This document shows positions 47,943-62,241 of a stretch of DNA of 64,000 bases, piece after piece. Both the position numbers and the translations under genes were made by a program. The stretch spans positions 1,023,099 to 1,087,098 of the forward strand of contig QJJF01000001.1 of assembly GCA_003202005.1 (NCBI GenBank), given 5' to 3'. This DNA comes from Williamsia faeni (GTDB lineage Bacteria; Actinomycetota; Actinomycetes; Mycobacteriales; Mycobacteriaceae). Numbering within the stretch: position 1 is the first letter of the stretch; each line of letters opens with the position of its first letter. The notes beneath the pieces are model-generated. The model saw only the letters and a list, made by a program, of their open reading frames with translations. It did no database searches and was not told the DNA's origin.

Positions 47943-48032
47943 ACCGGTGTGTCCCTTTCCTTGCGCTCGCTGTGACGGGCGGTACACGGAACTATGGCAG
48001 TAGCTCAATTCTTGGGCAATACCGTGACAACT

Positions 48033-48046
48033 TACGTATTTACGTA
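48033..48046. promoter_or_regulatory. palindrome TACGTATTTACGTA between acyl-CoA dehydrogenase and MarR genes
   Basis: Two copies of TACGTA are separated by TT, giving an inverted repeat at the centre of the 196-nt divergent gap. It is a candidate operator for the MarR regulator or another factor controlling the dehydrogenase pair. The evidence is symmetry and position. Confidence 0.35.
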
Positions 48047-48138
48047 GCCGCGGAGGAGTGTTGCGCCCTACCTGCTTCGTACGTCGCCTGGATGGGTGCT
48101 GCCCCTCAATGAACTCGGCCGTGACGTAGTTTGGCACC

Positions 48139-48672
48139 ATGGACGGAGTCGATGTCATCGTGTCGCACTGGGCTGTTGCGCGCCCGGAACTCGACGTCTC
48201 GGGTTTGAAGGTCTTCGGACGGCTGCATCGCAGCTTCCTGGTCTACAAGAATCGCATCGCCGAAACATTCGAGAAGCACAACATCACCGACTCCGGTTTC
48301 GACGTTCTGGCCTGCCTGCGCCGTGCGGTACCCGATCACCGCTTGACCTCAGGTGAACTGGCCGAGCAGACATTGGTCACCACCGGCGGACTCAGCTTGC
48401 GGGTCAAGCGGCTCGAAGAAGCGGGTTTGGTGACGCGCTCGCGCGATGCCGGAGATGCACGGCTGGTCTATGTACAACTCACTCCGGAGGGCAGCGCACT
48501 CGTCGATGCCGTCGCGGACGAACATTTTCGCAAGCTGAAGGCAATGCTCGGCGACATGAGCGAAGACGACATCCAGACCTTGGCCACCCTCCTCGGACGC
48601 CTCGAAAGTTCCGCACGCACAGTCCCCGGAACCGACTCCGCGAGCGCTGCGCGAGCTGTCACCTCCGCCTGA
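48139..48672 (+). CDS. MarR-family transcriptional regulator
   Basis: A 177-residue MarR protein. The winged helix-turn-helix lies at about 65-130 (LTSGELAEQTLVTTGGLSLRVKRLEEAG, wing SRDAGDARLVYVQLTPEG), flanked by dimerisation helices. MarR proteins often sense aromatic acids or their CoA esters and repress nearby catabolic genes. The start has little ribosome-binding sequence and may be leaderless. It sits between the divergent dehydrogenase pair and the long rightward operon, whose upstream palindromes (48793-48831) are likely its targets. Confidence 0.85.
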   Translation: MDGVDVIVSHWAVARPELDVSGLKVFGRLHRSFLVYKNRIAETFEKHNITDSGFDVLACLRRAVPDHRLTSGELAEQTLVTTGGLSLRVKRLEEAGLVTRSRDAGDARLVYVQLTPEGSALVDAVADEHFRKLKAMLGDMSEDDIQTLATLLGRLESSARTVPGTDSASAARAVTSA

Positions 48673-48780
48673 CGCAAAATATTTTCGGTTCTTCGTGACC
48701 CGGCACACACCCGGTGTGACCTGCGTCTCTTCCGTTTCGTAGACGTAAAAACCGCGTAACAGCAGCTCTGACGGGCAAGT

Positions 48781-48831
48781 TTGACATTGACGTCTTAGCG
48801 CTAAGAGATTACAAATGTCTTAGCGCAAAGA
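48781..48831 (+). promoter_or_regulatory. promoter and paired operators of the long catabolic operon
   Basis: TTGACA at 48781-48786 is a consensus -35 box. TCTTAGCGCTAAGA (48793-48806) is a perfect 14-nt palindrome lying in the spacer, and TCTTAGCGCAAAGA (48818-48831) is a second copy with one changed base, 25 nt further on. The -10 region would be at about 48804-48812. The TTAG...CTAA half sites are typical of MarR-family operators. Repression by the adjacent MarR protein is the simplest reading. Confidence 0.65.
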
Positions 48832-48876
48832 TATTTGCGAAGCGCACTGAAAAGTCTCCTGTCGAACGGATACCCG

Positions 48877-50415
48877 ATGACACTCGCTGCACAACCCGCT
48901 CCAACGGTTCTGAGAACGGCGCCCGGAGGCGCATCCGCCACCGATCTGATCGACGAGATTTATGTCGGCGGCAACTGGTGTCGCGGCTCGGGTGATGCAC
49001 TCGACACGGTCGACCCCTCCACCGGAGAGGTGTTCGCCACCCTCCACGGCGCAACCGCCGACGATGTCGACGTCGCAGTGCAGGCAGGCCTCGACACCGC
49101 TCACCGCAGCGGATGGTCCTCGATGTACGTGCATGAGCGCGCCGCGGTACTCCACCGCATCGGCAACGCCGTCGAGCACAACCGGGACCGCATCGCAGCA
49201 CTACAGACCCTCGACACCGGCAAGACGCTGACGGAGACGCGGGCACTTGCGATGAGCGCTGCCAACACATTTCGTTACATGGCGGCAGCCGTGGAGACCA
49301 TGGACGGCGCGCTGACCACACCGCGTGGGCCGTGGATGACGATGTCGACTCACGAGCCGATGGGTGTCATCGGTGCCATCACACCCTGGAACTCGCCGAT
49401 CGCCTCCGACGCCCAAAAGATCGCTCCCGCACTGGCTGCCGGCAATGCCGTCGTCTCCAAGCCGCCCGTGTGGGCGCCGTGGGTGACACTGCTGCTGGCC
49501 CGCCTGTGCGAGGAAGCAGGGCTACCGGCCGGCCTCTTGTCCGTACTCCCCGGTCCCGGCCGCACCGTGGGTGAAGCCCTGGTCCGGCACCCCGACGTCG
49601 CCAAGGTCACCTTCACCGGAGGCACCGGCACCGGACGCCACCTCGCCCACCTGGCCGCCGACAAACTCATGCCGATCACCCTCGAGCTCGGCGGCAAGTC
49701 CCCCACCATCGTCTTCGCCGATGCCGACATCGAACGCGCCCTCCAGGGCGTCCTGTACGGCATCTTCTCCTCCAGCGGTCAGAGCTGTATCGCAGGATCG
49801 CGAGTCTTCGTTCAGCGCAGCATCTTCGACGAGTTCACCGCCGAGCTCGCCGACCGGGCACAACGCCTGCGCCTTGGCGCCGGAACGGACGCCCGCACGG
49901 ACGTCGCACCGATGATCGCTGCGGCGCACCGTGATTCGGTGGCACGGATGGTCGATGACGCCGTCGCCGCCGGTGCAACACTGCTGTGCGGAGGCGCCGT
50001 CCCCACGGAGGGAGACCTCGCCTTCGGCGCCTACTACCCTCCCACCGTTCTCAGCGGTGTCACCAACGCCGCGGTGATCTGTCAAGAAGAGGTCTTCGGT
50101 CCCGTGGCGGTCGTTCTCCCGTTCGACGACGAACGCGATCTGATCGAGCAGGCCAACGACAGTGTCTACGGTCTCGCCTGCGGTATCTGGACCGAGGACT
50201 ACCGGCGGGCGACGCGCATCGCCAACACCATCTCGGCCGGCACCGTGTGGGTCAACACGTACAAGCAGTTCTCCATCTCGACCCCGTTCACCGGTCTGCG
50301 CGACAGCGGACTCGGCACCGAGAAGGGTCGAGATGCGGTGCGGCAGTACAGCAATCAGAAGAGCATCTACCTCGATCTTTCCGAGGCCCCACTCTCCTGG
50401 GGTCACCGGAATTGA
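48877..50415 (+). CDS. NAD(P)-dependent aldehyde dehydrogenase
   Basis: A 512-residue ALDH with the catalytic Cys304 in GQSCIAGSR, the general-base Glu270 in LELGGKSP, and the cofactor motif FTGGTGTGRH. It oxidises an aldehyde to a carboxylate. It is the first gene of the operon and is followed by RidA. The same pairing occurs in 2-aminomuconate-type pathways (semialdehyde dehydrogenase plus RidA-family deaminase), which may be a clue. ATG 48877 has a weak ribosome-binding sequence, and an in-frame TTG at 48835 would overlap the operators. Confidence 0.87.
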   Translation: MTLAAQPAPTVLRTAPGGASATDLIDEIYVGGNWCRGSGDALDTVDPSTGEVFATLHGATADDVDVAVQAGLDTAHRSGWSSMYVHERAAVLHRIGNAVEHNRDRIAALQTLDTGKTLTETRALAMSAANTFRYMAAAVETMDGALTTPRGPWMTMSTHEPMGVIGAITPWNSPIASDAQKIAPALAAGNAVVSKPPVWAPWVTLLLARLCEEAGLPAGLLSVLPGPGRTVGEALVRHPDVAKVTFTGGTGTGRHLAHLAADKLMPITLELGGKSPTIVFADADIERALQGVLYGIFSSSGQSCIAGSRVFVQRSIFDEFTAELADRAQRLRLGAGTDARTDVAPMIAAAHRDSVARMVDDAVAAGATLLCGGAVPTEGDLAFGAYYPPTVLSGVTNAAVICQEEVFGPVAVVLPFDDERDLIEQANDSVYGLACGIWTEDYRRATRIANTISAGTVWVNTYKQFSISTPFTGLRDSGLGTEKGRDAVRQYSNQKSIYLDLSEAPLSWGHRN

Positions 50416-50447
50416 CACACCCAACCCCTCCCGAAAGGACACCCGCC

Positions 50448-50813
50448 ATGGCAAACACCGTTACCACCACGAGTCCGGCGCACCCCTACAGTCCCGCATA
50501 CGCGGTGGCCGGCTTCGGATTCGTCTCCGGCGCTTTGTCGGTCGATGTTGACGGCCACGCCGTCGAAGGAGTCGAACCAGCTCTCGACGCCGCCGTCGCC
50601 CGGCTGACCGAACGCCTCGCCACGATTGACATGGCGCTGACCGATGTCGTGAAGACCACCTACTTCGTCACCGACGTCGCCACCCGCGATGCGGCCAACA
50701 AGCACTACGAGCGCATCTTCGATGCGCCGCGGCCGGCACGCTCGTTCGTCGAGGTCGCTGCCTTGCCGTACGGGGCGACCGTCGAAATCGAAGCCATCGC
50801 CCACCGCCCCTGA
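50448..50813 (+). CDS. RidA-family protein (imine/enamine deaminase)
   Basis: A 121-residue RidA/YjgF protein. The active-site Arg of the family is present in RPARSFVEVAALPYGATVEIEAIA, so it should hydrolyse imines or enamines to ketones and ammonia. GAAAGGA lies ahead of the ATG. It follows the ALDH gene by 32 nt. A second RidA-like gene at 59654 in the same operon lacks this Arg, so this copy is the likely active one. Confidence 0.87.
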   Translation: MANTVTTTSPAHPYSPAYAVAGFGFVSGALSVDVDGHAVEGVEPALDAAVARLTERLATIDMALTDVVKTTYFVTDVATRDAANKHYERIFDAPRPARSFVEVAALPYGATVEIEAIAHRP

Positions 50814-50873
50814 GTATTTCAGTACTCCCTGCACCACGGCGCGCACCATCCCGCTCTTCCGAAAGGACCCAAC

Positions 50874-51392
50874 ATGACCGCTCCAGAAAAGACCCACGCC
50901 GACCTCGAGAACCTGATCGACTCGTGCATCGCCAGCAAGGAAACCCGCTACGAGGACTGGGACACTCTCGGCTTCCAGGCCGCCAAGGGCGGCGACCGCT
51001 TCAAGCGCGCCCAGATCCGCTACATCGGCTCCGGCGCAACCGGCAACCACGAGGGCGACTCCCGCTCCCTTCCGTCCGAGCACTTCACCTTCTCCAACAT
51101 GCGCCTCCCCGCAGGCGCAGTAGGACCCGAACACACCCACCACGACGTCGAAGAAGTCTTCTACGTTCTGGAGGGAGAACTCGAAGTCGCCGTCCACGAC
51201 GTCGAGGACGGCACCAAGACCGCCGTCCGGCGCCTGGGCTACCGCGACCTCATCCGCGTCCCCGCCGGTGTGCCCCGCAGTCTCGCCAACGTGGGCGAGA
51301 CCGACGCGCTCTTCTGCGTGGTCATCGGTGCACCCAAGCCCCAGCTACCCACCTACCCGCCCAGCTCGGAGATGTACGGCGTCACGCGCTGA
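50874..51392 (+). CDS. cupin-domain protein
   Basis: A 172-residue protein with one cupin barrel. Motif 1 is GPEHTHHDVEEVFYVLEGELEV, with two His and a Glu as metal ligands, and motif 2 is in IRVPAGVPRSLANVG. Small cupins act as dioxygenases, isomerases or sensors. The size is near 3-hydroxyanthranilate dioxygenase, but the sequence motifs do not specifically match it. GAAAGGA precedes the ATG. It lies between RidA and the VanB-type reductase, so a ring-cleavage or isomerase step is possible but unproven. Confidence 0.78.
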   Translation: MTAPEKTHADLENLIDSCIASKETRYEDWDTLGFQAAKGGDRFKRAQIRYIGSGATGNHEGDSRSLPSEHFTFSNMRLPAGAVGPEHTHHDVEEVFYVLEGELEVAVHDVEDGTKTAVRRLGYRDLIRVPAGVPRSLANVGETDALFCVVIGAPKPQLPTYPPSSEMYGVTR

Positions 51393-51435
51393 CCCCAATT
51401 GGGTCACCCGGACGGCAGACACGGAAGGAACAGCG

Positions 51436-52389
51436 ATGCACGAGAACACCACCAGACGACTCCGCGTGCAGCAGAAGAGCTTCGAGGCCGAAGGCGTCAC
51501 CAGTGTCACCCTGGTCGACCCGACCGGAGCACCACTGCCGACGTGGGAGCCGGGTGCTCATGTGGCTCTCCACCTCCCTGGAGGACTGGTCCGCGAATAC
51601 TCGTTGTGCTCGGATCCCGAGGACACGAACAGATGGACCGTCGCTGTCCTGCGTGCTGAACGATCCCGGGGCGGAAGTGTCCACGTGCACGACAAGCTTT
51701 CCGTCGGAACGGAAATCGAGGTGGCCGGGCCCCGCAGCGCATTCGCGTTGGACACCGGTGCCGACGAACACGTCCTGATCGCCGGCGGTGTCGGCATCAC
51801 GCCCATCGTGGCAATGATGCGGCACCTCGAAAGGACCGCCCGCCCCTGGCGCATGCTCTACGCCGGCCGGTCCCGCTCGTCGATGGCATTCGCCGACGAG
51901 GTCAGTCGATCGGCGGGTGAAGCGGCGATCCACGCCGACGACGAACAGGGCGGGCTCCCGGACCTACCTGCGATGCTCGGCGAACTCGGTCCCGGCGCAG
52001 TCGTCTACTGCTGTGGCCCGGCCCCCCTCCTCGACGCTGTCGCGAACGCGGTACCGGCCCAGGCGTCGCTGCGCACCGAGCGGTTCGCCGCCCCGGAGGT
52101 CGTGGTCTCCGAGACCGGCGACACGGCCTTCGACGTGGTCCTCGAACGCAGCGGCCGGCGGCTCCCGGTGGCCCCGGAACAGTCGGTGCTCGATGCGCTC
52201 CTCGACGGCGGCCTCGACGTCCCCAGCTCCTGCACCGAAGGGATCTGCGGAACGTGCGAGGTCGGCGTGATCAAGGGCGATGTCGACCATCGTGACTTTC
52301 TTCTCGGTGAATCCGAACATGCCGACAACAAGATCATGTTCCCGTGTGTATCCCGTTGCCGCTCAGCCGAACTCGTTCTCGATCTCTAA
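51436..52389 (+). CDS. VanB/PDR-type oxygenase reductase (FMN, NAD, [2Fe-2S])
   Basis: A 317-residue single-chain reductase. The FMN domain has REYSLCSDP, the NAD domain has IAGGVGITPIVAMM and CCGPAPLLDAV, and the C-terminal plant-type ferredoxin has SSCTEGICGTCEVG with the fourth Cys in FPCVSRC. Such proteins pass electrons from NADH to Rieske oxygenases of the VanA/phthalate type. In this operon the partner should be the Rieske oxygenase at 58210. Confidence 0.9.
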   Translation: MHENTTRRLRVQQKSFEAEGVTSVTLVDPTGAPLPTWEPGAHVALHLPGGLVREYSLCSDPEDTNRWTVAVLRAERSRGGSVHVHDKLSVGTEIEVAGPRSAFALDTGADEHVLIAGGVGITPIVAMMRHLERTARPWRMLYAGRSRSSMAFADEVSRSAGEAAIHADDEQGGLPDLPAMLGELGPGAVVYCCGPAPLLDAVANAVPAQASLRTERFAAPEVVVSETGDTAFDVVLERSGRRLPVAPEQSVLDALLDGGLDVPSSCTEGICGTCEVGVIKGDVDHRDFLLGESEHADNKIMFPCVSRCRSAELVLDL

Positions 52390-52400
52390 GGAGTCCCACC

Positions 52401-53414
52401 ATGACCGCCGATCACCTGCCGGTACACCGCCGGCCTGTGCTCACCGATCGACCCGTCTGTGCTCTGCGCAGCCTCCGATCCGTGGCGCTGACCGTGCCGG
52501 ATCCGAGCGCAGCCCGCGACTTCTACCACGAGGTATGGGGCCTGACGACCGTAGAAGAGGACGGCGATCGCTTCTGGCTTCGCGCCACCGGAACCGACCA
52601 CCACGTGCTCGATCTGCGGCGCGGTGACCATAATGCGTTGGGCCGCATCAGCTTCGCCGTCGGGACACCCCGCGAGGTGGACGATGCCGCACGTGCTCTG
52701 CATCGCATCGGAGTCCCGGTTCTCCGCGAACCCGGTCCCCTCGACCACGCCGGCGGTGGCTACGGAATGCGACTGGTGGACCCCGAGGGTCGCATCGTCG
52801 AGTTGTCCGCCGACACCTACGCGGTGCCGGCACAGGAACCGGCGGGACGACGCGCGATTCCCCGCAAGATCGCCCACGTCGTGCTCAACACCACCGACAT
52901 CGAACGCACCGCCGCGTTCTACACGCAGGTCCTCGGCATGAAGATCTCCGACTGGTCAGAACGTCAGATGACGTTCCTGCGCTGCAACTCCGACCATCAC
53001 GTCATCGCGCTCAATCAGGCACCGTGGGCTTCGCTGAACCACGTCGCCTATGAGATGCCGTCGATCGACCACTTCATGCGCGGCATCGGAAGCCTGCGCG
53101 CACACGGCATCTCACCGCAGTGGGGGCCGGGTCGCCACGGACCGGGTGACAACACCTTCTCCTATTTCACCGACCCGGCCGGACTGGTCTGCGAGTACAC
53201 CTCCGAGGTGGCGCAGATCGACGAGGACTCCTGGTTGTGCCGCACTTGGCGACGCACCCCCGAACTGTCCGATCAATGGGGCACGGCCGGTGCACCCACA
53301 ACCTCCGTCCGAACGGCGATGGCCGGCATCCCCGACCTCGGCGCGCAGCCACTCTTCGTGGCCGACCACCCCGACTACTTCATCCCGATGCCCGAAACCG
53401 TGGGTGTCTCATGA
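52401..53414 (+). CDS. VOC-family extradiol-type ring-cleavage dioxygenase candidate
   Basis: A 337-residue protein with two vicinal-oxygen-chelate modules (about 25-150 and 165-290). The second carries the metal ligands of type I extradiol dioxygenases: His in AHVVLNTTDIE, His in LNHVAYEM and Glu in GLVCEYTSE. A near-match to the extradiol signature (GRHGPGDNTFSYFTDPAG) is present, with a shift by one at the aromatic pair. It probably cleaves a catechol in the meta position. Its stop overlaps the start of an alpha/beta hydrolase, the usual next enzyme. Confidence 0.78.
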   Translation: MTADHLPVHRRPVLTDRPVCALRSLRSVALTVPDPSAARDFYHEVWGLTTVEEDGDRFWLRATGTDHHVLDLRRGDHNALGRISFAVGTPREVDDAARALHRIGVPVLREPGPLDHAGGGYGMRLVDPEGRIVELSADTYAVPAQEPAGRRAIPRKIAHVVLNTTDIERTAAFYTQVLGMKISDWSERQMTFLRCNSDHHVIALNQAPWASLNHVAYEMPSIDHFMRGIGSLRAHGISPQWGPGRHGPGDNTFSYFTDPAGLVCEYTSEVAQIDEDSWLCRTWRRTPELSDQWGTAGAPTTSVRTAMAGIPDLGAQPLFVADHPDYFIPMPETVGVS

Positions 53415-54244
53415 CGGGGACAACGGTGACGGGGACAACGTTGACCCGGACCCTGTTCGTCGACCGACTGTGTGTCGTCGGGTACCACCCGGACAGCGAA
53501 AACATCACGGCACCTACGGTTCTGCTCCTGCACGGAATCGGCGGCTCGGCAGACTCGTGTGCGCCGCTCGCCGGCATTCTCGCCCATCTCGGCATCCACG
53601 CCTGGTGCCTCGACGCCGCTGGGTACGGCAAGTCCGCAGATCCGACGAGCGTGCACCACCACGACTTCGTCGCAGATGTCCTGACGGTTGCCGAGGCAGT
53701 GTCGCCCGGACGTCCGGTGGTGCTGCTGGGGACCTCATGGGGCGGCGTCATCGCCGCCGCCGCAGCGCTACGCCGACCCGACCTCGTGGCAGGTCTCGTG
53801 CTCGCCGACAGCACCCGCGGCAGTGGGACGTCGCCGGCCAAAGCCGACGCCATGCGGGCCCGGGCCGCCGACATGTTGCTGCGCGGACCCGCCGCGCTCG
53901 CCGACGAACGAGCGGCCCGCCTGGTCGCCCCCGGTGCGGACCCCGCGATCGCGGAATCGGTGCGCGCGTCTATGGCGTCGGTGCGCGACAGCGGATTCTC
54001 GGCGGCCGCGGAGTTCATGGCATCGGCCGATCTCGGACCACTGCTTGGTCAGATCAGTTGCCCCACCGCCGTTGTCGTCGGAGAGGCCGATGTGATCACC
54101 GGCGTCGAAGAATCCCGACTGCTCGCGGAGTCGATTCCGGGGGCCCGGCTGTACGAGGTCGCGGGTGCCGGGCACGTCGCGATCCAGGAACAGCCGGCGA
54201 TCGTGGCCGCTCACGTCTTACAACTCCTGGAAGGCCTGTCATGA
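53411..54244 (+). CDS. alpha/beta hydrolase, meta-cleavage-product-hydrolase-like
   Basis: A 277-residue serine hydrolase. It has LLLHGIGGSADS as the oxyanion loop, LLGTSWGGVIAA as the nucleophile elbow, Asp in VVVGEADVITG, and His in GAGHVAIQEQP. The size and sequence type fit C-C hydrolases of the BphD/MhpC group. An ATGA overlap with the upstream extradiol-type gene supports hydrolysis of the ring-cleavage product, and another ATGA overlap leads into the SDR gene. Confidence 0.82.
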   Translation: MTGTTVTGTTLTRTLFVDRLCVVGYHPDSENITAPTVLLLHGIGGSADSCAPLAGILAHLGIHAWCLDAAGYGKSADPTSVHHHDFVADVLTVAEAVSPGRPVVLLGTSWGGVIAAAAALRRPDLVAGLVLADSTRGSGTSPAKADAMRARAADMLLRGPAALADERAARLVAPGADPAIAESVRASMASVRDSGFSAAAEFMASADLGPLLGQISCPTAVVVGEADVITGVEESRLLAESIPGARLYEVAGAGHVAIQEQPAIVAAHVLQLLEGLS

Positions 54245-54984
54245 CGGGCGGCACTGTTGTCGTCACCGGAGGCGGGCGCGGCCTGGGTCTGAGCATCGCG
54301 CAGCGCCTGTGCAGCGACGGTAAGCGGGTCGTCATCGCCGAACGCGATCCCGACACTGCACACGCGTCGGCCGAAGGACTGCGGCGAAGCGGTTACGACG
54401 CCCACGCCGTGATCACCGACATCGGCGACAGCAGTTCGATCCGGGCGCTCGTGTCCGGGTTGCACACCGACGGTGACCGCGTCGTCGGCCTCGTCAACAA
54501 CGCCGCGATCGCCGACGGTGTCGGCGGCAAAACGTTCTTCGACCTCGACGAGGCAGAGTTCGACCGGGTCACCTCCGTCAACATCCGCGGGACGTGGGCG
54601 ATGACGAAATACCTGTGGCCGGCGATCTCGGATGCAAAGGGATCGATCGTCAACATCGCCTCCGACGTCGCGATGTACGGATCACCACGGCTCGTACATT
54701 ACGTGAGCTCCAAAGCCGCCGTCATCGGCATGACGCGATCGATGGCTCGCGACGCCGGTGAACACGGAGTCAGGGTGAATGCTGTTGCCCCCGGGCTTAT
54801 TCGGGTGGAGGCCACCGAATCCGTTCCTGACGCCCGTTACCGGACCTATGCCGAAGGCCGGTCACTGAACCGGGAGCAAACTCCCGAGGACGTCGCCGGC
54901 GTCGTCCGTTTCCTCCTGTCCGACGACGCAGCCTTCGTCACCGGACAGACCATCGTCGTCGACGGCGGATTCATCTTCCGCTGA
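54241..54984 (+). CDS. SDR-family dehydrogenase (dihydrodiol dehydrogenase candidate)
   Basis: A 247-residue classical SDR with the cofactor loop TGGGRGLG, the NNAA motif, the catalytic Ser and the HYVSSKAA Tyr-Lys pair, and the end VVDGGFIFR. It starts by a 4-nt overlap with the hydrolase gene. In a pathway with a Rieske oxygenase it is the natural candidate to rearomatise a cis-dihydrodiol to a catechol. That assignment rests on context. Confidence 0.85.
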   Translation: MTGGTVVVTGGGRGLGLSIAQRLCSDGKRVVIAERDPDTAHASAEGLRRSGYDAHAVITDIGDSSSIRALVSGLHTDGDRVVGLVNNAAIADGVGGKTFFDLDEAEFDRVTSVNIRGTWAMTKYLWPAISDAKGSIVNIASDVAMYGSPRLVHYVSSKAAVIGMTRSMARDAGEHGVRVNAVAPGLIRVEATESVPDARYRTYAEGRSLNREQTPEDVAGVVRFLLSDDAAFVTGQTIVVDGGFIFR

Positions 54985-55008
54985 CAGCGCATTCTCAGGA
55001 GTTAGTTC

Positions 55009-55791
55009 ATGGATCTGCATCTCAAAGACCGACGAATACTGATCACGGGTGCCAGCTCGGGTATCGGACTCGCGACGGCGACGATGCTCGCCGCCGAGGG
55101 TGCACGACTGGCCCTGTGCGCCCGGGATCAGGACCGGTTGCGTGCGGTGACAGCACCTCTCGCCGAGCAGACCGACGTGGTGACCGCATCGTGCGACGTC
55201 ACTTCGAAGCAGTCGGTCGAAGACTTCGTCGGCCGGGCCGTCGACCACCTCGGGGGGCTCGACGGTGTGGTCTGCAATGCCGGCCGCTCACTGATGAGCA
55301 CCGTCGAGGAGACGACCGACGATGAGATCCGGGAGGAGTTCGACCTCAAGATCTTCGGCGCACTCAACGTCGTCCGTTCGGCCCGCAAAGTCCTGGCGTC
55401 CTCGGATGCCGGATCGATCGTCGTCGTGAACGCAATCCTGTCGCGTCAGCCGGAATCACGGCTGGCCGTCACCGCCGCAGCGAGGGCCGGCTTGCTGAAC
55501 CTGTCCCGTTCGCTCGCAAATGATCTGGCAGTGGACAACATTCGGGTCAACTCGGTCCTTCTCGGTCTGGTCGACACCGGACAGTGGCAGCGCCGTTATG
55601 CAGACAGCAACTCCGCCCTCGACTTCGCCCAGTGGAGCGCCGAGATCGCCGCTGACCGCGGTATTGCATTGGGCCGCTTCGGCACAGCCGAAGAACTGGC
55701 CTTTCCGATCACCACGCTCCTGTCCCCACGCAGCAGCTACATCACCGGTGCCGCGCTCGACGTCGGCGGCGGTGTCCACCGCTACATCTGA
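55009..55791 (+). CDS. SDR-family protein with non-canonical active site
   Basis: A 260-residue SDR. The cofactor loop TGASSGIG and the CNAG motif are normal, but the catalytic Tyr-x3-Lys region reads RLAVTAAARAGLLNLSRSL, placing Thr and Arg where Tyr and Lys should be. The C-terminal DVGGG replaces the VDGG end. It may use another mechanism, act as a reductase of a special subclass, or be structural. It lies 24 nt after the first SDR. CAGGAG precedes the ATG. Confidence 0.78.
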   Translation: MDLHLKDRRILITGASSGIGLATATMLAAEGARLALCARDQDRLRAVTAPLAEQTDVVTASCDVTSKQSVEDFVGRAVDHLGGLDGVVCNAGRSLMSTVEETTDDEIREEFDLKIFGALNVVRSARKVLASSDAGSIVVVNAILSRQPESRLAVTAAARAGLLNLSRSLANDLAVDNIRVNSVLLGLVDTGQWQRRYADSNSALDFAQWSAEIAADRGIALGRFGTAEELAFPITTLLSPRSSYITGAALDVGGGVHRYI

Positions 55792-55837
55792 CCGCCGAAC
55801 CCAAACAGACTTCCACGCCACCAACTCAGGAGAAGAC

Positions 55838-57514
55838 ATGCAACCAGAAGCAGGCACCCGCCCCACCGGTGGTGACGTGCTGGTCGACGTCATGAAACGA
55901 CACGGTGTGACAACCGCGTTCGGCGTCATCAGTATCCACAACCTGCCGCTCGTCGAGGCCGTCGACCGTGACCTCGACTTCGTCGAAATGCGCCACGAAG
56001 CTGCCGCCGTCAACGCCGCGGACGCCTACGCCCGCACCACCGGGGGTATCGGGATCGCACTGACGAGCACCGGAACCGGAGCCGGCAACGCGGCCGGGTC
56101 GATGGTCGAAGCCCTGACCGCGGGCAGTCGCGTCCTGCACATCACCGGTCAGATCGAGAGCGAGCACCTCTCACCCGGCCGCCCGGCGCCCAGTCGCGGT
56201 GTCATCCACGAATTCCCGAAACAGCCCCAACTGCTCGATGCGGTATCGGCATACAGCGCCACGATCACCGACGTGAAAAGCGTTCAGTTCGAACTCGAGA
56301 ACGCAATTGCACGGATCCGGTCGGCACCGAACGGTCCGGCAAGCATCGAATGGCCCACCGACCTGCAGTACCTCGCGTCACTGGAGAACCAGCGACCGTT
56401 CGAGACACCCGGCCGTTCACTACCCGAACTCGACACCGACGCGATAGCACGGGCGGCCGAGTTGGTCCGACAGGCGAAGACCCCGTTGATCTGGCTGGGC
56501 GGCGGCGCCGCAGGTGCGGGCGAAGAGTTGACCGAACTCGCACATCGGCTCGGAGCCGGGATTCTCACCAGCAATTCCGGACGTGGCATCGTGCCCGAGA
56601 GCGACCCACTGGTCGTCGGCAACTTCGCCACGACACCACCGGCGCGCGCCCTCATCGCCGATGCCGACCTCCTCATCGCGATCGGCACCCACTTTCGCTC
56701 CAACGAGACTGCGACGTACAGCCTGTCGTTGCCGGACAAGATGATTCAGATCGACATCGAACCTTCGACGATCGGCCGGGTCTACCCCGCCGTGGTCGGG
56801 ATCGTCGGGGACGCCAGGGCAACGGTGGCCGCTCTGGCAGAGCAGGTCGGTGTCGTCGACGTCGCCGCCGACTGGGCGGCGCGGGTGACCGAGGTGCGCG
56901 AGAGCGTGCGCGCAGATCTGACCGAGTACATCGGCGGTTACGCAGACATCTGCACCGCGATGCGCGCGATCCTGCCGGAGCGCTCACCGATCGCCCGGGA
57001 CGTCACCATCCCGTCCAGTCAATGGGGCAATCGACTTCTGCCGATCCTCGACCGCGCCACCAACATCTTTCCGCTGGGCGGCGGCATCGGTCAGGGTCTC
57101 GCGATGGGAATCGGTGCGGCACATGGCCGCTCGGATGTGCCCACGCTGGTCATGGTCGGTGACGGCGGTTTGGCCGTCCACCTTGGCGAGCTGGCCTCAC
57201 TGGCAGGCTCGAATGCGCACTGCATAGTGGTCGTGTTCAACGACGGTGGGTACGGGGTCCTTCGGAACATGCAGGAGAAGAACGGGTTCCGGCGATCCGG
57301 GGTCGACCTGCACACCCCGCGGTTCGATCTGCTCGCGAAGTCGATGGGGATACCCCACCACTTGATTCAGAGTGCTGATCTGTTCGGGGCAGCGCTGACC
57401 GAGGCGGTCGAGCGGCAGGGACCGTCCATGATCGAAGTCGACGTCTCCGCCATTGCGCCCACACCGGGGGCATTCGTTCCGCCCGTACACGTGCCGACGG
57501 ACGCCGGCCGATGA
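55838..57514 (+). CDS. thiamine-diphosphate-dependent enzyme (acetolactate synthase / benzoylformate decarboxylase superfamily)
   Basis: A 558-residue ThDP enzyme. The N-terminal PYR domain has the activating Glu in MRHEAAAVNAADAYAR, a central Rossmann-like domain follows, and the C-terminal PP domain has the metal/ThDP motif GDGGLAVH leading to VVFNDGGYG. Family members decarboxylate 2-oxoacids or carry out carboligation. In this operon a 2-oxoacid decarboxylase feeding the aldehyde dehydrogenase would make sense. The gene overlaps the next by ATGA. Confidence 0.85.
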   Translation: MQPEAGTRPTGGDVLVDVMKRHGVTTAFGVISIHNLPLVEAVDRDLDFVEMRHEAAAVNAADAYARTTGGIGIALTSTGTGAGNAAGSMVEALTAGSRVLHITGQIESEHLSPGRPAPSRGVIHEFPKQPQLLDAVSAYSATITDVKSVQFELENAIARIRSAPNGPASIEWPTDLQYLASLENQRPFETPGRSLPELDTDAIARAAELVRQAKTPLIWLGGGAAGAGEELTELAHRLGAGILTSNSGRGIVPESDPLVVGNFATTPPARALIADADLLIAIGTHFRSNETATYSLSLPDKMIQIDIEPSTIGRVYPAVVGIVGDARATVAALAEQVGVVDVAADWAARVTEVRESVRADLTEYIGGYADICTAMRAILPERSPIARDVTIPSSQWGNRLLPILDRATNIFPLGGGIGQGLAMGIGAAHGRSDVPTLVMVGDGGLAVHLGELASLAGSNAHCIVVVFNDGGYGVLRNMQEKNGFRRSGVDLHTPRFDLLAKSMGIPHHLIQSADLFGAALTEAVERQGPSMIEVDVSAIAPTPGAFVPPVHVPTDAGR

Positions 57515-57978
57515 ACGCACTCGCACCGAAGCGCTGGTGGGACGACGGCGCCCGCATGGCCGTCGAAGCCGCCAACCCGACGCACGTATTCGCATCCGGC
57601 GCCGATGCCCGCGCCGCCATCGAACTCGCCGTCGATCATCCGGCCACCGTCGTGAGCCTCGTGCTCGCCGACCCGGTCTTCGATGTCGACAGCGACACCG
57701 GCGAGCGGCTACTGAACTCGGTGACGGTACCGACACTCGTCATCGCATCCGCCCCGGAATCCGATACCGATCTGGGCGTTGCGCAACGCCTCGCCGGAGA
57801 CATCGACAACGCGGTTTTCGTCGTCGTCGACGGTTCGACCAACCCGGTGCACACCGGCAGCCGGGAGTCATTCCACGAGTGGAGTTCCTCCTTCGTCACC
57901 ATCGCCGAAGGGTTGGCACTCCGCTCGGGGACCGTTCTCACCCCACCCACCCCCCTCGTCGAAGGAGAAGTCCGATGA
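57511..57978 (+). CDS. short degenerate alpha/beta-hydrolase-like protein
   Basis: A 155-residue protein that looks like half of an alpha/beta hydrolase. HVFASGADARAAIELAVDHP lies where the nucleophile elbow and following helix should be, but the G-x-S-x-G pattern is lost. Later, VVVDGSTNPVHTGSRESF lies where the catalytic His loop (GxGH) should be, and that His is also gone. The N-terminal oxyanion strand is missing. The frame is intact and linked by ATGA overlaps on both sides, so it is expressed and retained, perhaps as a structural partner of the ThDP enzyme or the Rieske oxygenase. Confidence 0.7.
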   Translation: MNALAPKRWWDDGARMAVEAANPTHVFASGADARAAIELAVDHPATVVSLVLADPVFDVDSDTGERLLNSVTVPTLVIASAPESDTDLGVAQRLAGDIDNAVFVVVDGSTNPVHTGSRESFHEWSSSFVTIAEGLALRSGTVLTPPTPLVEGEVR

Positions 57979-58208
57979 CCACTCGCACAGCCCGCGAGCC
58001 CTATCTCGAAACACACCAATCCCACCCGGAACCGATCACACCGTACGAGCGCAAGCTCGCCGGATCACTCAGCGAGGTCTACGCCGGTGGCGTCGACACC
58101 TTGGACGGTGTCGTCGAAGGCCTCAACAACCTGGGCCTTCACGGGCCGAATGGCGGCCCCTGGACCGCCGAGGGTTTTCGCGCCGAGATGCGCAGATTGG
58201 GGAAGTGA
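57975..58208 (+). CDS. small protein of unknown function (77 aa) before the Rieske oxygenase
   Basis: A 77-residue protein. The C-terminus GGPWTAEGFRAEMRRLG resembles the short helix found in recombinase-like domains (GxxWTxxxxRxxLxxxG), but it is far too small to be a recombinase. The N-terminal half is polar and may be disordered. ATGA overlap with the gene before and a 1-nt gap to the Rieske gene suggest a tight functional tie. Similar placement is seen for the unrelated small protein before the other Rieske gene at 10258. Confidence 0.72.
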   Translation: MTTRTAREPYLETHQSHPEPITPYERKLAGSLSEVYAGGVDTLDGVVEGLNNLGLHGPNGGPWTAEGFRAEMRRLGK

Positions 58209-58209
58209 C

Positions 58210-59319
58210 ATGACCACCGAAACCACCACCACTGCCACAACCGGCACGCCGGCGCGAGCGACCGCCCGCCGATCCGGCCCGACCTATGCCGTCGGCACCC
58301 GGCGTCACCTCGACGCCGACGACATCGCTGCCACCGGCATCCGGGACCGTTGGTACCCGATCCTGCCCTCCCACATGGTTCAGGCCGGCGACATGGTCCC
58401 CGTGCGCCGCCTTGACGTGGACTGGGTTCTGTTCCGCGACGCGGAAGGCAACGTGCGCATGCTCGAGGACCGTTGCCCGCACCGCAGCGCACCGCTGTCG
58501 GTCGGACAGCACCTCGGCGACCGCATCGCGTGCATGTATCACGGGGTCCAGGTCGACGGAACCGGAACTGTGGTCTCCGTCCCGGGCATGCCGGGGTGCG
58601 CGCTGGAGGGACGGCGAGCGACTGTATCGCTGGACGTGGTCGAAGCCGCCGACACCATCTTCGCGTTCGTCCCACTGACCGCGGACTCCGTCACCACCCC
58701 GTTTGCATTGCCTGATCGACTGGCCGATCCAGAGGTGTCCTCGTTCCCGAATTACGCCGAGTGGGCCGGGCCCTGGCGCTTCTACATGGACAACGTCCTC
58801 GACCCGATGCACGGAGCCTTCCTGCACCGCAACTCCCACTCGATGTTCGGCGGCGACGTCACCGCGCGTTTCCGTATCCGGGAGACCGATCGCGGCTTCT
58901 TCTTCGAGAAGACCGACCAGCGCGGCGTCAATTTCGACTGGGTCGAGTTCGTCCGCGGGTCGATGGACTACGTCGACCTGGAAATCCCGTACGGCCCCGG
59001 TGCAGGTCCGGGCGGAGTGTTCGGCATCGTCGGTATGAGCACCCCGATCGATCGGCAGAACTCCGCGATCTTCCATTGGCGTACCCGACGGGTCGACGGA
59101 TGGCAGCGTGAATCGTGGCGGTTCCTGTACCGAACCATGCTCGAGGCAAAACACTGGGAAGTTCTCGAACAGGACCGTGCCGTCCTCGAGGTACTCGCGT
59201 CGGACGCCGATCACGAGGAGCACCTGTACCAACACGATCTCGGTGTCTCGCGGATCCGCCGGCTCTACCGGGCCGATGCGAAAGCCCAGGCTCAGACTCT
59301 GGCGGAAGCCGGCCGATGA
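58210..59319 (+). CDS. Rieske oxygenase, VanA/phthalate-type
   Basis: A 369-residue single-component oxygenase. The Rieske ligands are Cys89-x-His91 (CPHRSAPL) and Cys108-x2-His111 (CMYHG). The mononuclear iron motif NVLDPMHGAFLHRN gives His201 and His206, and Asn195/Asp198 form the electron bridge. The length fits the alpha-only family that works with a VanB-type reductase, as at 51436. It would hydroxylate or demethylate the aromatic substrate. A Thr-rich tail precedes the domain. It overlaps the next gene by ATGA. Confidence 0.88.
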   Translation: MTTETTTTATTGTPARATARRSGPTYAVGTRRHLDADDIAATGIRDRWYPILPSHMVQAGDMVPVRRLDVDWVLFRDAEGNVRMLEDRCPHRSAPLSVGQHLGDRIACMYHGVQVDGTGTVVSVPGMPGCALEGRRATVSLDVVEAADTIFAFVPLTADSVTTPFALPDRLADPEVSSFPNYAEWAGPWRFYMDNVLDPMHGAFLHRNSHSMFGGDVTARFRIRETDRGFFFEKTDQRGVNFDWVEFVRGSMDYVDLEIPYGPGAGPGGVFGIVGMSTPIDRQNSAIFHWRTRRVDGWQRESWRFLYRTMLEAKHWEVLEQDRAVLEVLASDADHEEHLYQHDLGVSRIRRLYRADAKAQAQTLAEAGR

Positions 59320-59657
59320 CCGCGCCCACCACCGAGACGATGATGCTGACCATCTTCCTGCGGCATGACCAGAGCCAAAACCTCGAGCAACTGCAGACCC
59401 GGCTCGACGACAACGACTGGTGGCACGGGTTTCCCCCGGAAGGCTGCGAGGTCGTGTCGTGGGTCGTCGCCATGGGGATCGGGCAGATCGTCACCCTGCG
59501 CCTACCCGCCCATCGGCTACCGGCGGTCAACGTCGAACTCGAACGACGGGCGTGGGGAACGTTTCGCACCGACTTCTACCCGACCTACGACTTCACCGAG
59601 GTACGCGAACGTCTCGCCCGCGAATCCGACGCCCGGCGCACAGTGTCCAGCTCATGA
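59316..59657 (+). CDS. small protein of unknown function (113 aa) after the Rieske oxygenase
   Basis: A 113-residue protein. It shows alternating strands and helices (MLTIFLRHDQ, then a helix, then EVVSWVVAMGIGQIVTLRLP, then a Tyr/Phe-rich DFYPTYDF segment), which could form a ferredoxin-like alpha/beta fold, but no family is recognised. ATG 59316 overlaps the Rieske stop. An in-frame ATG at 59340 is also possible. The tight coupling suggests it works with the oxygenase. Confidence 0.72.
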   Translation: MTAPTTETMMLTIFLRHDQSQNLEQLQTRLDDNDWWHGFPPEGCEVVSWVVAMGIGQIVTLRLPAHRLPAVNVELERRAWGTFRTDFYPTYDFTEVRERLARESDARRTVSSS

Positions 59658-60046
59658 CCCGCGTGACGCACTCCGACGTGCCCGAGCCGCCTCGGGCGGG
59701 AATGTTCAGCAACGCCCGAGTCATCGGAAGCCAGTTCTTTCTCTCCGGCATGCACGCGGGCACACCGTCGGGACCGATCGGTGGATCCGACACCTATGAG
59801 CAGGCCAAGGAGGCGTTTCGCCGCGTCGCAGCTCTCTGCGAGGCCTGCGGCGCCGGCGTCGACGACATCGTCACCCTACGGATCTACGTCACCGACGTCG
59901 CCGACAAAGCTGCCGTCGGGCGGGCCCGGGGCGAAGTCTTCACCGGCGACCTCCCCTGCTCGACATTGCTGGAGGTCTGCGCACTTGTCGAACCCGGTCT
60001 CACCGTCGAGATCGAAGCACAAGGTTTCATCCCCACCTTCCACTAG
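59654..60046 (+). CDS. RidA-family protein lacking the active-site Arg
   Basis: A 130-residue RidA/YjgF-fold protein. The C-terminal core reads LPCSTLLEVCALVEPGLTVEIEAQGF, so Ser stands where imine deaminases have the essential Arg. The rest of the trimer-forming fold is kept. It may bind a different ligand or have another activity, or act with the canonical RidA at 50448. It is linked by ATGA overlap to the 113-aa gene and is the last gene before the transporter. Confidence 0.83.
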   Translation: MTRVTHSDVPEPPRAGMFSNARVIGSQFFLSGMHAGTPSGPIGGSDTYEQAKEAFRRVAALCEACGAGVDDIVTLRIYVTDVADKAAVGRARGEVFTGDLPCSTLLEVCALVEPGLTVEIEAQGFIPTFH

Positions 60047-60103
60047 CGGACAATTGACAACAGCACCCGGCGCTCGTCGCCGACCGACCCTTAGGACGCC
60101 ATC

Positions 60104-61393
60104 ATGAGCGGACCAACTTCAACAGGAAAAACAACTGCAGCGATCACCCGCCCGAACTGGACTGTGCTGACGCTGGCCTTCATCGCTGTCGTGCTCGACG
60201 GCTACGACACCATCGCGCTCGGGCTGTCGGTGCCCGCGATGTCCCGCGACTGGGGGGAGGCTCCGTCGCACTTCACACCCGCTCTTGCACTCACCAGTCT
60301 CGGTGTCGCCCTCGGCTACATCGCCGTCGGACGCCTCACCGCACGCCACGGGTGCCGCAACGTCATTCTGGTCGCGGTCGGCGTGTTCACGGTCGGTTCG
60401 CTACTGACCGCCTGGTCCGGATCGATCATCGAGCTCTCTGCCCTGCGGTTCATGACCGGCCTCGGACTGGGTGCGGTCATGCCCGCGGCCGTTGCGCAGG
60501 CAACCGCCCTCAATCCGGCTCGGCTGCGTCAGTCGATCGCCGTGTTCGTGACCATGGGAATCTCGCTCGGCGCCCTCATCGCCGGACTGGCGGGCAGCCA
60601 ACTCGTGTCCCACTTCGGGTGGCCGTCCGTGTTCATCGCCGGCGCAATAGCCTCTGCCTCGCTGTTCCCGTTCCTGTGGTTCGGGCTGCCCGACGAGCGC
60701 GGCGCAATCGGTCAGGTCACGCCCGCCGATGCGAAGCACAGTGCCTCGGTCGCGCGGTTGTTCGATCCCGAGGTCCGGGCCCGCACGCTCGTTCTGTGGG
60801 GATTCGCGTTCCTCGTCTTCTCGGTGTTCTACATCTTCTCCTCGTGGCTCCCGACGCTGCTCACCAGTTACGGATTCAGCACCGGACTTGCACCGCTCGG
60901 CTCCGCCGCCTTGGGTGTCGGCAGCATCATCGGCGCCGGCATCCTCATCGTCGGCGTTCTCAAGTTTCGACTGACCTCCGTTCTCGTCTGCACCACAACG
61001 GCCGCGATCGTGTTCCTGGTGATCTCCGCGTTTCTCGGGCCGGACAAAGCATTGCTGCTGATCGTGTTCGGCGGTGTCGGCCTCGGCCTGCAAGCGGGCA
61101 TGATCGGACAAGCCGCGGTCGCTGTATCGATCTACCCTCATCGCACCGTCGCAACCGGTGTCGGCTGGGCATCATCGATGGGCCGATTGGGCTCGGTCAT
61201 CGGCCCGATCGTCGGCGGAGCGCTCATCGGACTCGGAACCTCTACCAGCACCATCGTGCTGCTCTCCTGCGTGCCGGTGTCCGCGGCCCTGGTGTTGATG
61301 GTCATCCTCGGCAGGATGCGTACTGCGGCTGACGATTCCGGCGATGTGCCCACCACAACGTCCGCGCCAAGGGACCACGCGTTGAGGTCATGA
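60104..61393 (+). CDS. MFS transporter, aromatic acid:H+ symporter type
   Basis: A 429-residue major-facilitator protein with 12 predicted membrane segments. The first helix carries VVLDGYDTIALGLSVPAM, matching the DGYD motif of the aromatic-acid:proton symporter family (PcaK type). The loop between helices 2 and 3 is a diverged GRLTARHGCRN. It probably imports the substrate of the operon. The end of the gene overlaps the aspartate-dehydrogenase-like gene by ATGA. Confidence 0.84.
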   Translation: MSGPTSTGKTTAAITRPNWTVLTLAFIAVVLDGYDTIALGLSVPAMSRDWGEAPSHFTPALALTSLGVALGYIAVGRLTARHGCRNVILVAVGVFTVGSLLTAWSGSIIELSALRFMTGLGLGAVMPAAVAQATALNPARLRQSIAVFVTMGISLGALIAGLAGSQLVSHFGWPSVFIAGAIASASLFPFLWFGLPDERGAIGQVTPADAKHSASVARLFDPEVRARTLVLWGFAFLVFSVFYIFSSWLPTLLTSYGFSTGLAPLGSAALGVGSIIGAGILIVGVLKFRLTSVLVCTTTAAIVFLVISAFLGPDKALLLIVFGGVGLGLQAGMIGQAAVAVSIYPHRTVATGVGWASSMGRLGSVIGPIVGGALIGLGTSTSTIVLLSCVPVSAALVLMVILGRMRTAADDSGDVPTTTSAPRDHALRS

Positions 61394-62241
61394 ACATGAA
61401 CGAGGATCTTGTGCAACACAATTCGTCGAACTCGACAACCACCGCCCCGCCCATAGCGGTGTCAATAGTCGGTTACGGTGCGATAGGCAGGGTGCTCGCC
61501 GACCGATTGCTCTCCGGAGCCGTTCTGAGCGTCGACCTGGTCGGCGTCGTCGATCAGAAGCCACTGTCCTCAGCACCCGCCGGGTTGCGACGTCTTGACT
61601 TCGAGGAAGCCTTGAGCGCATCGCAGATCATAGTCGAATGCGCCGGACCCGGATTCGTGCGTCAACGTGCACGCACCATCGTCGAAAGCGGCGTCGACCT
61701 GGTCCTCTGCTCGATCGGCGCGTACGCCGATCCAGAGCTGCGGGCACAATTGAATGCAGCCGGCCCAGGACGAATCGTCCGCCCGACCGGCGCGATCGGC
61801 GCCTTGGACTTCCTCGAAGCCGCAGCACGATTCGAGCGGTTCGACCAGGTCACGCTCACCACCACCAAACCACCCCGCGCGCTGCTGCGGGACTGGATGA
61901 GCAACGACGAACAACAGGAGTTGCTCGCGTCCACGGCACCACGGGAGGTGTTCCGCGGATCAGTCCGCAAAGCCTGCGAGCTCTACCCCAGCTCGATCAA
62001 TGTGGCCGCCGCAATCGCGATGGCCATCAACGACTTCGACGCCGTCGAGGTCGTGATCCGCAGCGACCCGGATGCGTCCTTCAACACGCACAGTATCGAC
62101 GCCGGCGCATCGTTCGGGCAGTACCGGTTCACCTTCGAAAACCGCCCCAGCGCCGAGAATCCGCGTACCAGTGGCATCGTGGCCGCGTCGGTACTGCATT
62201 CGCTCGAACAACTGGCGCAGCGCCAACGCGCACTTCTCTGA
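61390..62241 (+). CDS. aspartate dehydrogenase-like protein
   Basis: A 283-residue protein of the L-aspartate dehydrogenase family. The Rossmann loop is SIVGYGAIGRVLAD, the conserved PTGAIGALDFLEAA segment and the C-terminal NPRTSGIVAASVL motif are present, and the first ~22 residues are a polar extension. The family oxidises an amino acid to its imine with NAD(P), or reduces it in reverse. It fits with the RidA proteins, which hydrolyse imines. The true amino acid is unknown. An in-frame ATG at 61396 is an alternative start. Confidence 0.8.
   Translation: MNMNEDLVQHNSSNSTTTAPPIAVSIVGYGAIGRVLADRLLSGAVLSVDLVGVVDQKPLSSAPAGLRRLDFEEALSASQIIVECAGPGFVRQRARTIVESGVDLVLCSIGAYADPELRAQLNAAGPGRIVRPTGAIGALDFLEAAARFERFDQVTLTTTKPPRALLRDWMSNDEQQELLASTAPREVFRGSVRKACELYPSSINVAAAIAMAINDFDAVEVVIRSDPDASFNTHSIDAGASFGQYRFTFENRPSAENPRTSGIVAASVLHSLEQLAQRQRALL

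Follow-up and report, generated by a model that had tools for sequence, protein, structure and literature searches.

A conserved actinobacterial operon proposed to catabolise kynurenate or a related quinoline-2-carboxylate

What substrate calls for a Rieske oxygenase, an extradiol dioxygenase and an aspartate dehydrogenase in one operon? The question is raised by 17 genes on the + strand (48139-62241) of a 64,000-nucleotide stretch of the Williamsia faeni genome, the whole of which is called the window here. They comprise a MarR-family regulator and 16 others, and their open reading frames were checked at the coordinates listed below. We propose that the operon serves the aerobic catabolism of kynurenate (4-hydroxyquinoline-2-carboxylate), a reading to which we assign a probability of about 0.55 and for which we infer the substrate and every intermediate. 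That quinoline-2-carboxylates in general form the substrate class can be said with rather more assurance. The directly established observations beneath these proposals are gene content, catalytic residues, synteny, operator-like repeats, an exchange between AspDH and RidA1, and add-on modules of two kinds, a molybdenum hydroxylase and a flavin monooxygenase.

Gene content and conservation of the operon

Gene families were assigned by scoring Pfam and NCBIfam profiles against their cut-offs, with the following results.

48139..48672, +, MarR-family regulator (PF12802/PF01047 above cut-off), with two conserved operator-like repeats downstream
48785..48835, +, candidate promoter/operator region (TTGAC element and -10-like stretch, read by eye)
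48877..50415, +, ALDH, aldehyde dehydrogenase (PF00171)
50448..50813, +, RidA1, imine/enamine deaminase (PF01042)
50874..51392, +, cupin (PF07883)
51436..52389, +, VanB-type reductase with [2Fe-2S] domain (PF00111, PF00175)
52401..53414, +, two-domain VOC extradiol dioxygenase (family match and conserved active-site residues)
53411..54244, +, ABH1, alpha/beta hydrolase (PF00561)
54241..54984, +, SDR1, classical SDR (PF13561)
55009..55791, +, SDR2, atypical SDR (NCBIfam PRK07062 above cut-off)
55838..57514, +, ThDP enzyme (PRK07064 equivalog, 651.7 bits, cut-off 495)
57511..57978, +, ABH2, short hydrolase-like protein (no Pfam match, weak NCBIfam matches)
57975..58208, +, 77-aa PF20552 (HTH_62) protein (95.4 bits, cut-off 27)
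58210..59319, +, Rieske oxygenase alpha subunit (PF00355)
59316..59657, +, 113-aa protein (no Pfam or NCBIfam match)
59654..60046, +, RidA2, RidA fold without the catalytic Arg (PF01042)
60104..61393, +, MFS importer (PF07690)
61390..62241, +, AspDH, aspartate dehydrogenase (PF01958)

Seven junctions are formed by ATGA overlaps: VOC/ABH1, ABH1/SDR1, ThDP/ABH2, ABH2/HTH62, Rieske/p113, p113/RidA2 and MFS/AspDH, where HTH62 and p113 denote the 77-aa and 113-aa genes. The MarR-ALDH gap measures 204 bp, and the non-overlapping gaps downstream of ALDH 1-60 bp. The first-pass annotation of this DNA had described a long same-strand operon with many ATGA overlaps and had named its enzyme families; coordinates and overlaps confirm the former, and both profile collections agree with the latter.

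A scan with the Rieske protein as query returned 55 loci, of which 50 extend 8.7 kb or more upstream from the Rieske gene and are termed long loci. Ten core genes (ALDH, cupin, reductase, VOC, ABH1, SDR1, SDR2, ThDP, PF20552 and Rieske) occur together in 48 of the 50 long actinobacterial loci, and the gene association is therefore not chance. The two loci without the full core are L057, whose available stretch contains no cupin, and L059, a partial cluster that lacks AspDH, RidA1, ALDH, cupin, VOC, ABH1 and ThDP and whose SDR matches may be unrelated SDRs. PF20552 is present in all 50 long loci, ABH2 in 49, the 113-aa gene in 40, RidA1 in 39, RidA2 in 38, AspDH in 32, MarR in 31 and MFS in 17; these figures allow one gene per place, without which ABH2 would stand at 50 and RidA2 at 39, and 48/50 is the same either way. 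The first-pass expectation of co-conservation thus holds in a neighbourhood comparison. Among the five genes it had singled out, ThDP, the 77-aa gene and Rieske belong to the core, whereas the 113-aa and AspDH genes, at the frequencies just given, are not universal.

Within the window's genus, 5 of 9 genomes carry two markers together (PF20552, and the ThDP family above cut-off), and the other 4 carry neither. Beyond the genus, one genome of the same order (G038) is exceptional in having the ThDP family above cut-off and no PF20552 match. A record titled Kitasatospora arboriphila NRRL B-24581 (L013) seems to fit the window's genus and is perhaps a mislabelled strain.

A related cluster is found in Proteobacteria. 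Queries with the ThDP and Klebsiella Rieske sequences matched 26 records of a plasmid collection, and we examined ten annotated regions (L067-L071, L076-L080) from Novosphingobium, Nitratireductor, Caballeronia, Klebsiella, Acinetobacter, Paracoccus and Pseudosulfitobacter. Rieske, PF20552-type, SDR, ThDP and cupin genes are annotated in all ten, and AspDH and ALDH in nine; the tenth (L078) is cut by the record end, its AspDH was located by tblastn, and it is the one region with an annotated RidA. The Rieske proteins of six loci, one of them on a Streptomyces plasmid, are 47-57% identical to that of the window. Ferredoxin or flavodoxin genes and FAD-dependent oxidoreductase genes are annotated in most of these clusters, with a PDR/VanB gene in L078. 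Three clusters without an annotated ferredoxin gene contain a flavodoxin-domain gene and, after it, a gene for a pentapeptide-repeat or hypothetical protein (L068:17224-18290, L076:24573-25630, L077:24482-25548). The cluster of Novosphingobium resinovorum pHR1a (L067:7708-19042) is interspersed with genes for a TonB receptor, a GH3 glycosidase and a SIR2-family protein, a hint that the substrate may be taken up there in glycosylated form. In E. coli the Klebsiella Rieske gene has no near match.

The organization of the upstream region is consistent with dedicated control. Two repeats, CTTAGCGCTAAG (48794-48805) and CTTAGCGCAAAG (48819-48830), lie 25 bp apart and overlap the TTGAC/-10-like candidate promoter. 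Of 14 related loci, 12 carry an exact copy of the pair and two a degenerate one; the only exact CTTAGCGCWAAG sites in the whole 5.5-Mb genome are the two in the MarR-ALDH gap. Operator-like sites with at most one mismatch also flank MarR in the upstream modules of other genera (raw matches, with no chance estimate). A sigma-70 consensus scan detected no promoter in the MarR-ALDH region. From its sequence, the locus seems to be one operon under local control and inducible by its substrate.

The neighbouring genes lie on the - strand. Two adjacent, divergent genes upstream (45769-48158) resemble acyl-CoA dehydrogenases, and the gene downstream resembles leuS, both as judged by eye. The acyl-CoA-dehydrogenase-like pair was rejected as an operon partner, being unmatched beside the cluster in 9 of 9 upstream regions of relatives.

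A proposed route through kynurenate

Functional residues are named here according to what is known of each family. Kynurenate would enter through the MFS protein, which is nearest to the aromatic-acid:H+ symport model TIGR00895 and to MhpT, both below cut-off; importers alternate across clusters between MFS and NMT1-type ABC systems, and BenE stands beside one cluster. The operon encodes both a ring-hydroxylating oxygenase and an electron-transfer partner. The Rieske ligands (C89/H91/C108/H111) and mononuclear-iron residues (N195/D198/H201/H206/D322) are kept in 60/60 sequences. We propose that this protein is a kynurenate 7,8-dioxygenase, that the VanB-type reductase serves it, and that the two, perhaps with the 77-aa protein, would convert kynurenate to the 7,8-dihydrodiol. 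The PF20552 family is named as a recombinase-like HTH; the 77-aa protein may instead be a partner or accessory protein of the oxygenase and not DNA-binding. Its gene lies directly 5' of the Rieske gene in most clusters, and before an ABC importer in L068, L076 and L077. The 113-aa gene sits between Rieske and RidA2.

SDR1, with its S141-Y154-K158 triad intact in 58/58, is the proposed dihydrodiol dehydrogenase and would yield 7,8-dihydroxykynurenate. The VOC protein presents the His-His-Glu Fe(II) site of a type I extradiol enzyme: H159/H214/E265 and the second-sphere residues H200, R245-H246 and Y255 align with homoprotocatechuate 2,3-dioxygenase and are kept in 56-57 of 57 sequences. These are the residues of a genuine extradiol dioxygenase. 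Its proposed reaction is 8,8a-cleavage of 7,8-dihydroxykynurenate, and the cut between C8 and C8a would leave a dihydroxypicolinate with an oxopropenyl-carboxylate side chain.

A hydroxypentadienoate hydratase, aldolase and acylating aldehyde dehydrogenase are annotated inside none of the ten proteobacterial clusters, and no hydratase/aldolase lower pathway is present among the window's 17 genes, the other actinobacterial loci being unscanned for it. In L080 a fumarylacetoacetate-hydrolase-family gene belongs to a separate neighbouring gene group on the opposite strand. With no such lower pathway seen, the ThDP enzyme and ALDH are left to process the cleavage product. In SDR2 the Ser-Tyr-Lys positions are occupied by N141/T155/R159 (54-55 of 56 sequences), which points away from ordinary carbonyl reduction; we propose that it reduces the C=C double bond of the oxopropenyl side chain. 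The ThDP enzyme (E54 in 55/58, N468 in 58/58) is proposed to be a 2-oxo-acid decarboxylase acting on the reduced side chain. The resulting aldehyde would be oxidised by ALDH, whose Glu270 and Cys304 are invariant (56/56) and whose best NCBIfam scores are to BADH and HpaE, both below cut-off; the proposed reaction is formylethyl to carboxyethyl. ThDP, ALDH and AspDH would fit better downstream of ring cleavage than upstream of it.

The remaining pyridine ring would be opened by the cupin and ABH1, and this terminal opening, together with the release of nitrogen, is our own proposal. In the cupin H87, H89 and E93 are invariant in 55 sequences and the motif-2 His is replaced by Arg135 in 53 of the 55; oxygenolytic opening of the dihydroxypicolinate ring is its proposed role. 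ABH1 keeps the triad S109-D227-H255 in 57/57, and amide or C-C hydrolysis at ring opening is proposed for it. ABH2 is possibly a non-catalytic partner protein. By carbon counting, the products would be CO2, a C5 diacid and aminofumarate/iminosuccinate, the diacid being 2-oxoglutarate if the cupin is a dioxygenase and glutarate if the opening is purely hydrolytic. On chemical grounds, an N-C(COOH)=C-C(=O) unit such as C2-C4 of kynurenate would yield iminosuccinate. Aminofumarate is the enamine of iminosuccinate, from which AspDH would form aspartate, or RidA1 oxaloacetate and ammonia.

Entry modules, nitrogen release and competing explanations

Genes flanking AspDH were fetched for 16 genomes. 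A three-subunit molybdenum hydroxylase of the xanthine dehydrogenase family adjoins 8 of the 16 clusters, directly before AspDH in 7 of the 8 (families PF02738/PF20256, PF00941 and PF01799 in L084), and a flavoprotein hydroxylase lies near 13; none of the 16 lacks both modules. A flavoprotein match is also present in L054, a carrier without AspDH. The order in Rhodococcus sp. HNM0569 is MarR, an NMT1-type ABC importer, the hydroxylase (FAD, FeS and Mo subunits), AspDH, then ALDH onward. On pNK84 of Caballeronia sp. NK8 a second ferredoxin-PF20552-Rieske-ThDP-VOC set (L081:14287-23518) lies about 8 kb beyond the full cluster and carries its own three-subunit molybdenum hydroxylase and an SRPBCC protein, as if only the substrate-specific enzymes had been duplicated. 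Molybdenum hydroxylases often oxidise N-heteroaromatic rings; 4-hydroxylation of quinaldate to kynurenate is the reaction such an enzyme would serve. Among the solved relatives of the molybdenum hydroxylase, quinoline 2-oxidoreductase ranks third or fourth.

This spread of modules suggests several entry substrates, and it lends some weight to the view that the main substrate is a different bicyclic N-heteroaromatic acid, such as xanthurenate, quinaldate or a quinolone, with kynurenate only a relative or an intermediate. We consider this unlikely. The flavoprotein has no match at E 1e-60 in the window genome and its genus (9/9 genomes). Neither module was seen by eye beside the operon in the window or is annotated beside the Klebsiella and Acinetobacter clusters, so the minimal set must be self-sufficient.

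The fate of the nitrogen bears on a second alternative, the order given in the first-pass annotation: an amine or amino acid deaminated by AspDH and RidA, followed by ThDP and ALDH, and only then ring hydroxylation and meta cleavage. Every enzyme class so named is present, and the MFS importer is nearest to an aromatic-acid type. However, 13 cluster carriers, each with RidA1, show no AspDH match anywhere in their genomes, and AspDH is hence not an obligatory first step. Conversely, the full clusters without RidA1 all have AspDH (10/10), and 5 of these 10 lack both RidAs. No locus in the comparison lacks both AspDH and RidA1 (P = 0.025, relatedness ignored). This comparison omits L018, L036, L046, L052, L057 and L063 (cut or short), L059 (partial, lacking both) and L024 (weak AspDH match, E 9.3e-4). 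In L032 and L041 AspDH was counted from the locus, and the pairs L011/G001, L012/G006, L022/G003 and L013/G008, being the same genomes, count once each among the 13. In Nocardioides sp. B-3 (L065 / G092:C1:805644-806409) AspDH matches in two pieces and may be split or frameshifted. The simplest reading of the exchange is that AspDH and RidA1 would be interchangeable, both disposing of iminosuccinate.

Window AspDH has the PF01958 domain and groups among the actinobacterial cluster AspDHs (midpoint-rooted tree, no outgroup); H234, which we take to be its catalytic His, is kept in 23/23. RidA1 has Arg98, presumably catalytic, in 40/40, and RidA2 has Ser103-Thr104 and lacks the catalytic Arg in 42/42. 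The AspDH of the K. pneumoniae cluster (L070) agrees with the KpnAspDH primers of PMC5554190 in the 9 residues they encode at the start and the 5 at the end, and its mass is 26.816 kDa against 26.8 kDa for KpnAspDH. Purified KpnAspDH oxidised aspartate at 3.42 U/mg and aminated oxaloacetate at 26.5 U/mg (PMC5554190). Matched by its ends and mass, the Klebsiella cluster AspDH is therefore a true aspartate dehydrogenase.

A genuine aspartate dehydrogenase and the 13 carriers without AspDH speak against the first-pass order, AspDH and RidA first and the ring last. A lower meta pathway is also not annotated in the ten proteobacterial clusters, and the molybdenum-hydroxylase module would be left unexplained, making this order improbable. 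The more general first-pass idea, an operon for a nitrogen-bearing aromatic acid, is supported as to substrate class.

The true aspartate dehydrogenase would also be accounted for by a phenyl substrate bearing an alanyl chain, of the 2,3-dihydroxyphenylalanine type, which VOC and the hydrolase would split into hydroxypentadienoate and aspartate, with AspDH removing the latter. The MhpT-like importer accords with this scheme, as does the resemblance of the Rieske-SDR-VOC-hydrolase series to phenylpropionate pathways. The scheme, however, would leave ThDP, ALDH, SDR2 and the cupin idle, does not account for the molybdenum hydroxylase, and would call for a hydratase and aldolase that are not annotated in the ten proteobacterial clusters. 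It too strikes us as a poor prospect.

Expression data touch on the cluster in pathogens. P. aeruginosa PA3498-PA3508 may be a homologous cluster. One paper calls PA3505 essential in three of four host-like conditions. For Acinetobacter, A1S and ABUW tags were equated with the cluster by annotation names and gene order. A1S_0954 and A1S_0956-0958 are up with mucin (PMC5757984), A1S_0945, 0946 and 0956 are listed as biofilm-only expression (PMC3758355), and A. baumannii ABUW_2942, 2943 and 2946 are induced by vitamin B12 together with sulfur-acquisition genes (PMC12892962). Use of an organosulfur aromatic as a sulfur source would suit that last listing and the importers' below-cut-off scores against sulfonate-binding proteins, but no known desulfurisation family is among the window's 17 genes and the table category is the authors' own label (PMC12892962), so that we regard it as very improbable.

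A 2-aminomuconate route, the other first-pass suggestion, was rejected: its 4-oxalocrotonate decarboxylase is not among the window's 17 genes, though RidA and ALDH are, and the 10 full actinobacterial clusters without RidA1 include the 5 without either RidA. By handling nitrogen after cleavage it came closer in spirit to the kynurenate route, while of its lower pathway there is no sign.

Several points weigh against kynurenate itself as the putative substrate. Among solved relatives, 4-hydroxybenzoyl-CoA reductase stands closest to the molybdenum hydroxylase and 6-hydroxypseudooxynicotine dehydrogenase second; the flavoprotein's top score, itself below cut-off, is to 3-hydroxybenzoate 6-hydroxylase and not to a quinoline enzyme. 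The cupin is without the usual motif-2 His and SDR2 without the SDR triad, and the roles of ABH1, ABH2, RidA2 and the 113-aa protein are guesses. The AspDH/RidA1 complementarity is suggestive only, because its P value ignores relatedness. In vitro, according to PMC5554190, KpnAspDH aminates faster than it deaminates, and the vitamin B12/sulfur listing of the A. baumannii genes (PMC12892962) is not explained by kynurenate.

The fullest version of the kynurenate proposal is accordingly more tentative, and we would not expect all of it to hold. It comprises a complete, hitherto unassigned kynurenate gene set that includes a previously undescribed cupin/ABH end game to 2-oxoglutarate and iminosuccinate, interchangeable AspDH and RidA, a molybdenum hydroxylase and a flavoprotein as optional modules for quinaldate and xanthurenate respectively, and consumption by Klebsiella and Acinetobacter of an immune- and neuro-active host metabolite.

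Significance and relation to known systems

Kynurenic acid, which humans form from tryptophan, is active in the nervous and immune systems, and its destruction by bacteria would, if the proposal is right, become genetically testable. To our knowledge, three enzymes of the kynurenate pathway have been known by activity alone since the 1960s; the operon would supply their genes. It would also explain the natural role of the bacterial aspartate dehydrogenases of biotechnology. Even with another quinoline acid as substrate, this would be a widespread uncharacterised ring-cleavage operon, seemingly without the standard lower pathway. The first-pass annotation knew of no described pathway with this set, and the matches listed in the open-access literature (mostly titles and abstract openings) likewise include no paper linking the genes to a kynurenate pathway.

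Known systems share parts of the operon. In the homoprotocatechuate (hpa) pathway, HpaD is the best-scoring counterpart of the VOC protein and HpaE the second best of ALDH, all below equivalog cut-offs, and the regulator HpaR is also MarR-type and among the matches of the operon's MarR. The operon differs in lacking the HpaF/G/H/I lower pathway, in having nitrogen-handling enzymes, and in a Rieske entry where hpa uses a flavin hydroxylase. The hca/mhp phenylpropionate systems share a Rieske oxygenase, an SDR, an extradiol dioxygenase, an alpha/beta hydrolase and an MhpT-like importer; unlike them, the operon has a single alpha-subunit Rieske protein with a VanB-type reductase, lacks MhpD/E/F, and has ThDP, ALDH, cupin and AspDH/RidA in addition. 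The Variovorax iad auxin operon probably has a different gene set. It is also catabolic for an N-heteroaromatic acid, and the paper on it mentions Rieske (PMC10374108). The A. baumannii kynurenine cluster, which is KynU-based (PMC9162365), differs from the operon. KpnAspDH, by ends and mass the AspDH of the Klebsiella cluster version and 30% identical to window AspDH, is treated as a production enzyme in PMC5554190, the text of which contains neither 'gene cluster' nor 'operon'.

The nearest parallel is with the kynurenate route of Pseudomonas. The enzymology of the 1960s reportedly established an aerobic route with activities EC 1.14.99.2, 1.3.1.18 and 1.13.11.10. Its steps (dioxygenation, dihydrodiol dehydrogenation, extradiol cleavage, side-chain reduction, decarboxylation and aldehyde oxidation) each have a matching enzyme class in the operon. 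That route is known by enzymology, and the operon here from genes alone. In a recent review glutamate, alanine and organic acids are named as what certain pseudomonads make from kynurenic acid (PMC11354673), and a degradation route is suggested for P. fluorescens, citing work titled on the enzymatic formation of 7,8-dihydroxykynurenic acid (PMC5610271). The 1960s route and the glutamate and alanine of PMC11354673 match the mechanism proposed for the operon.

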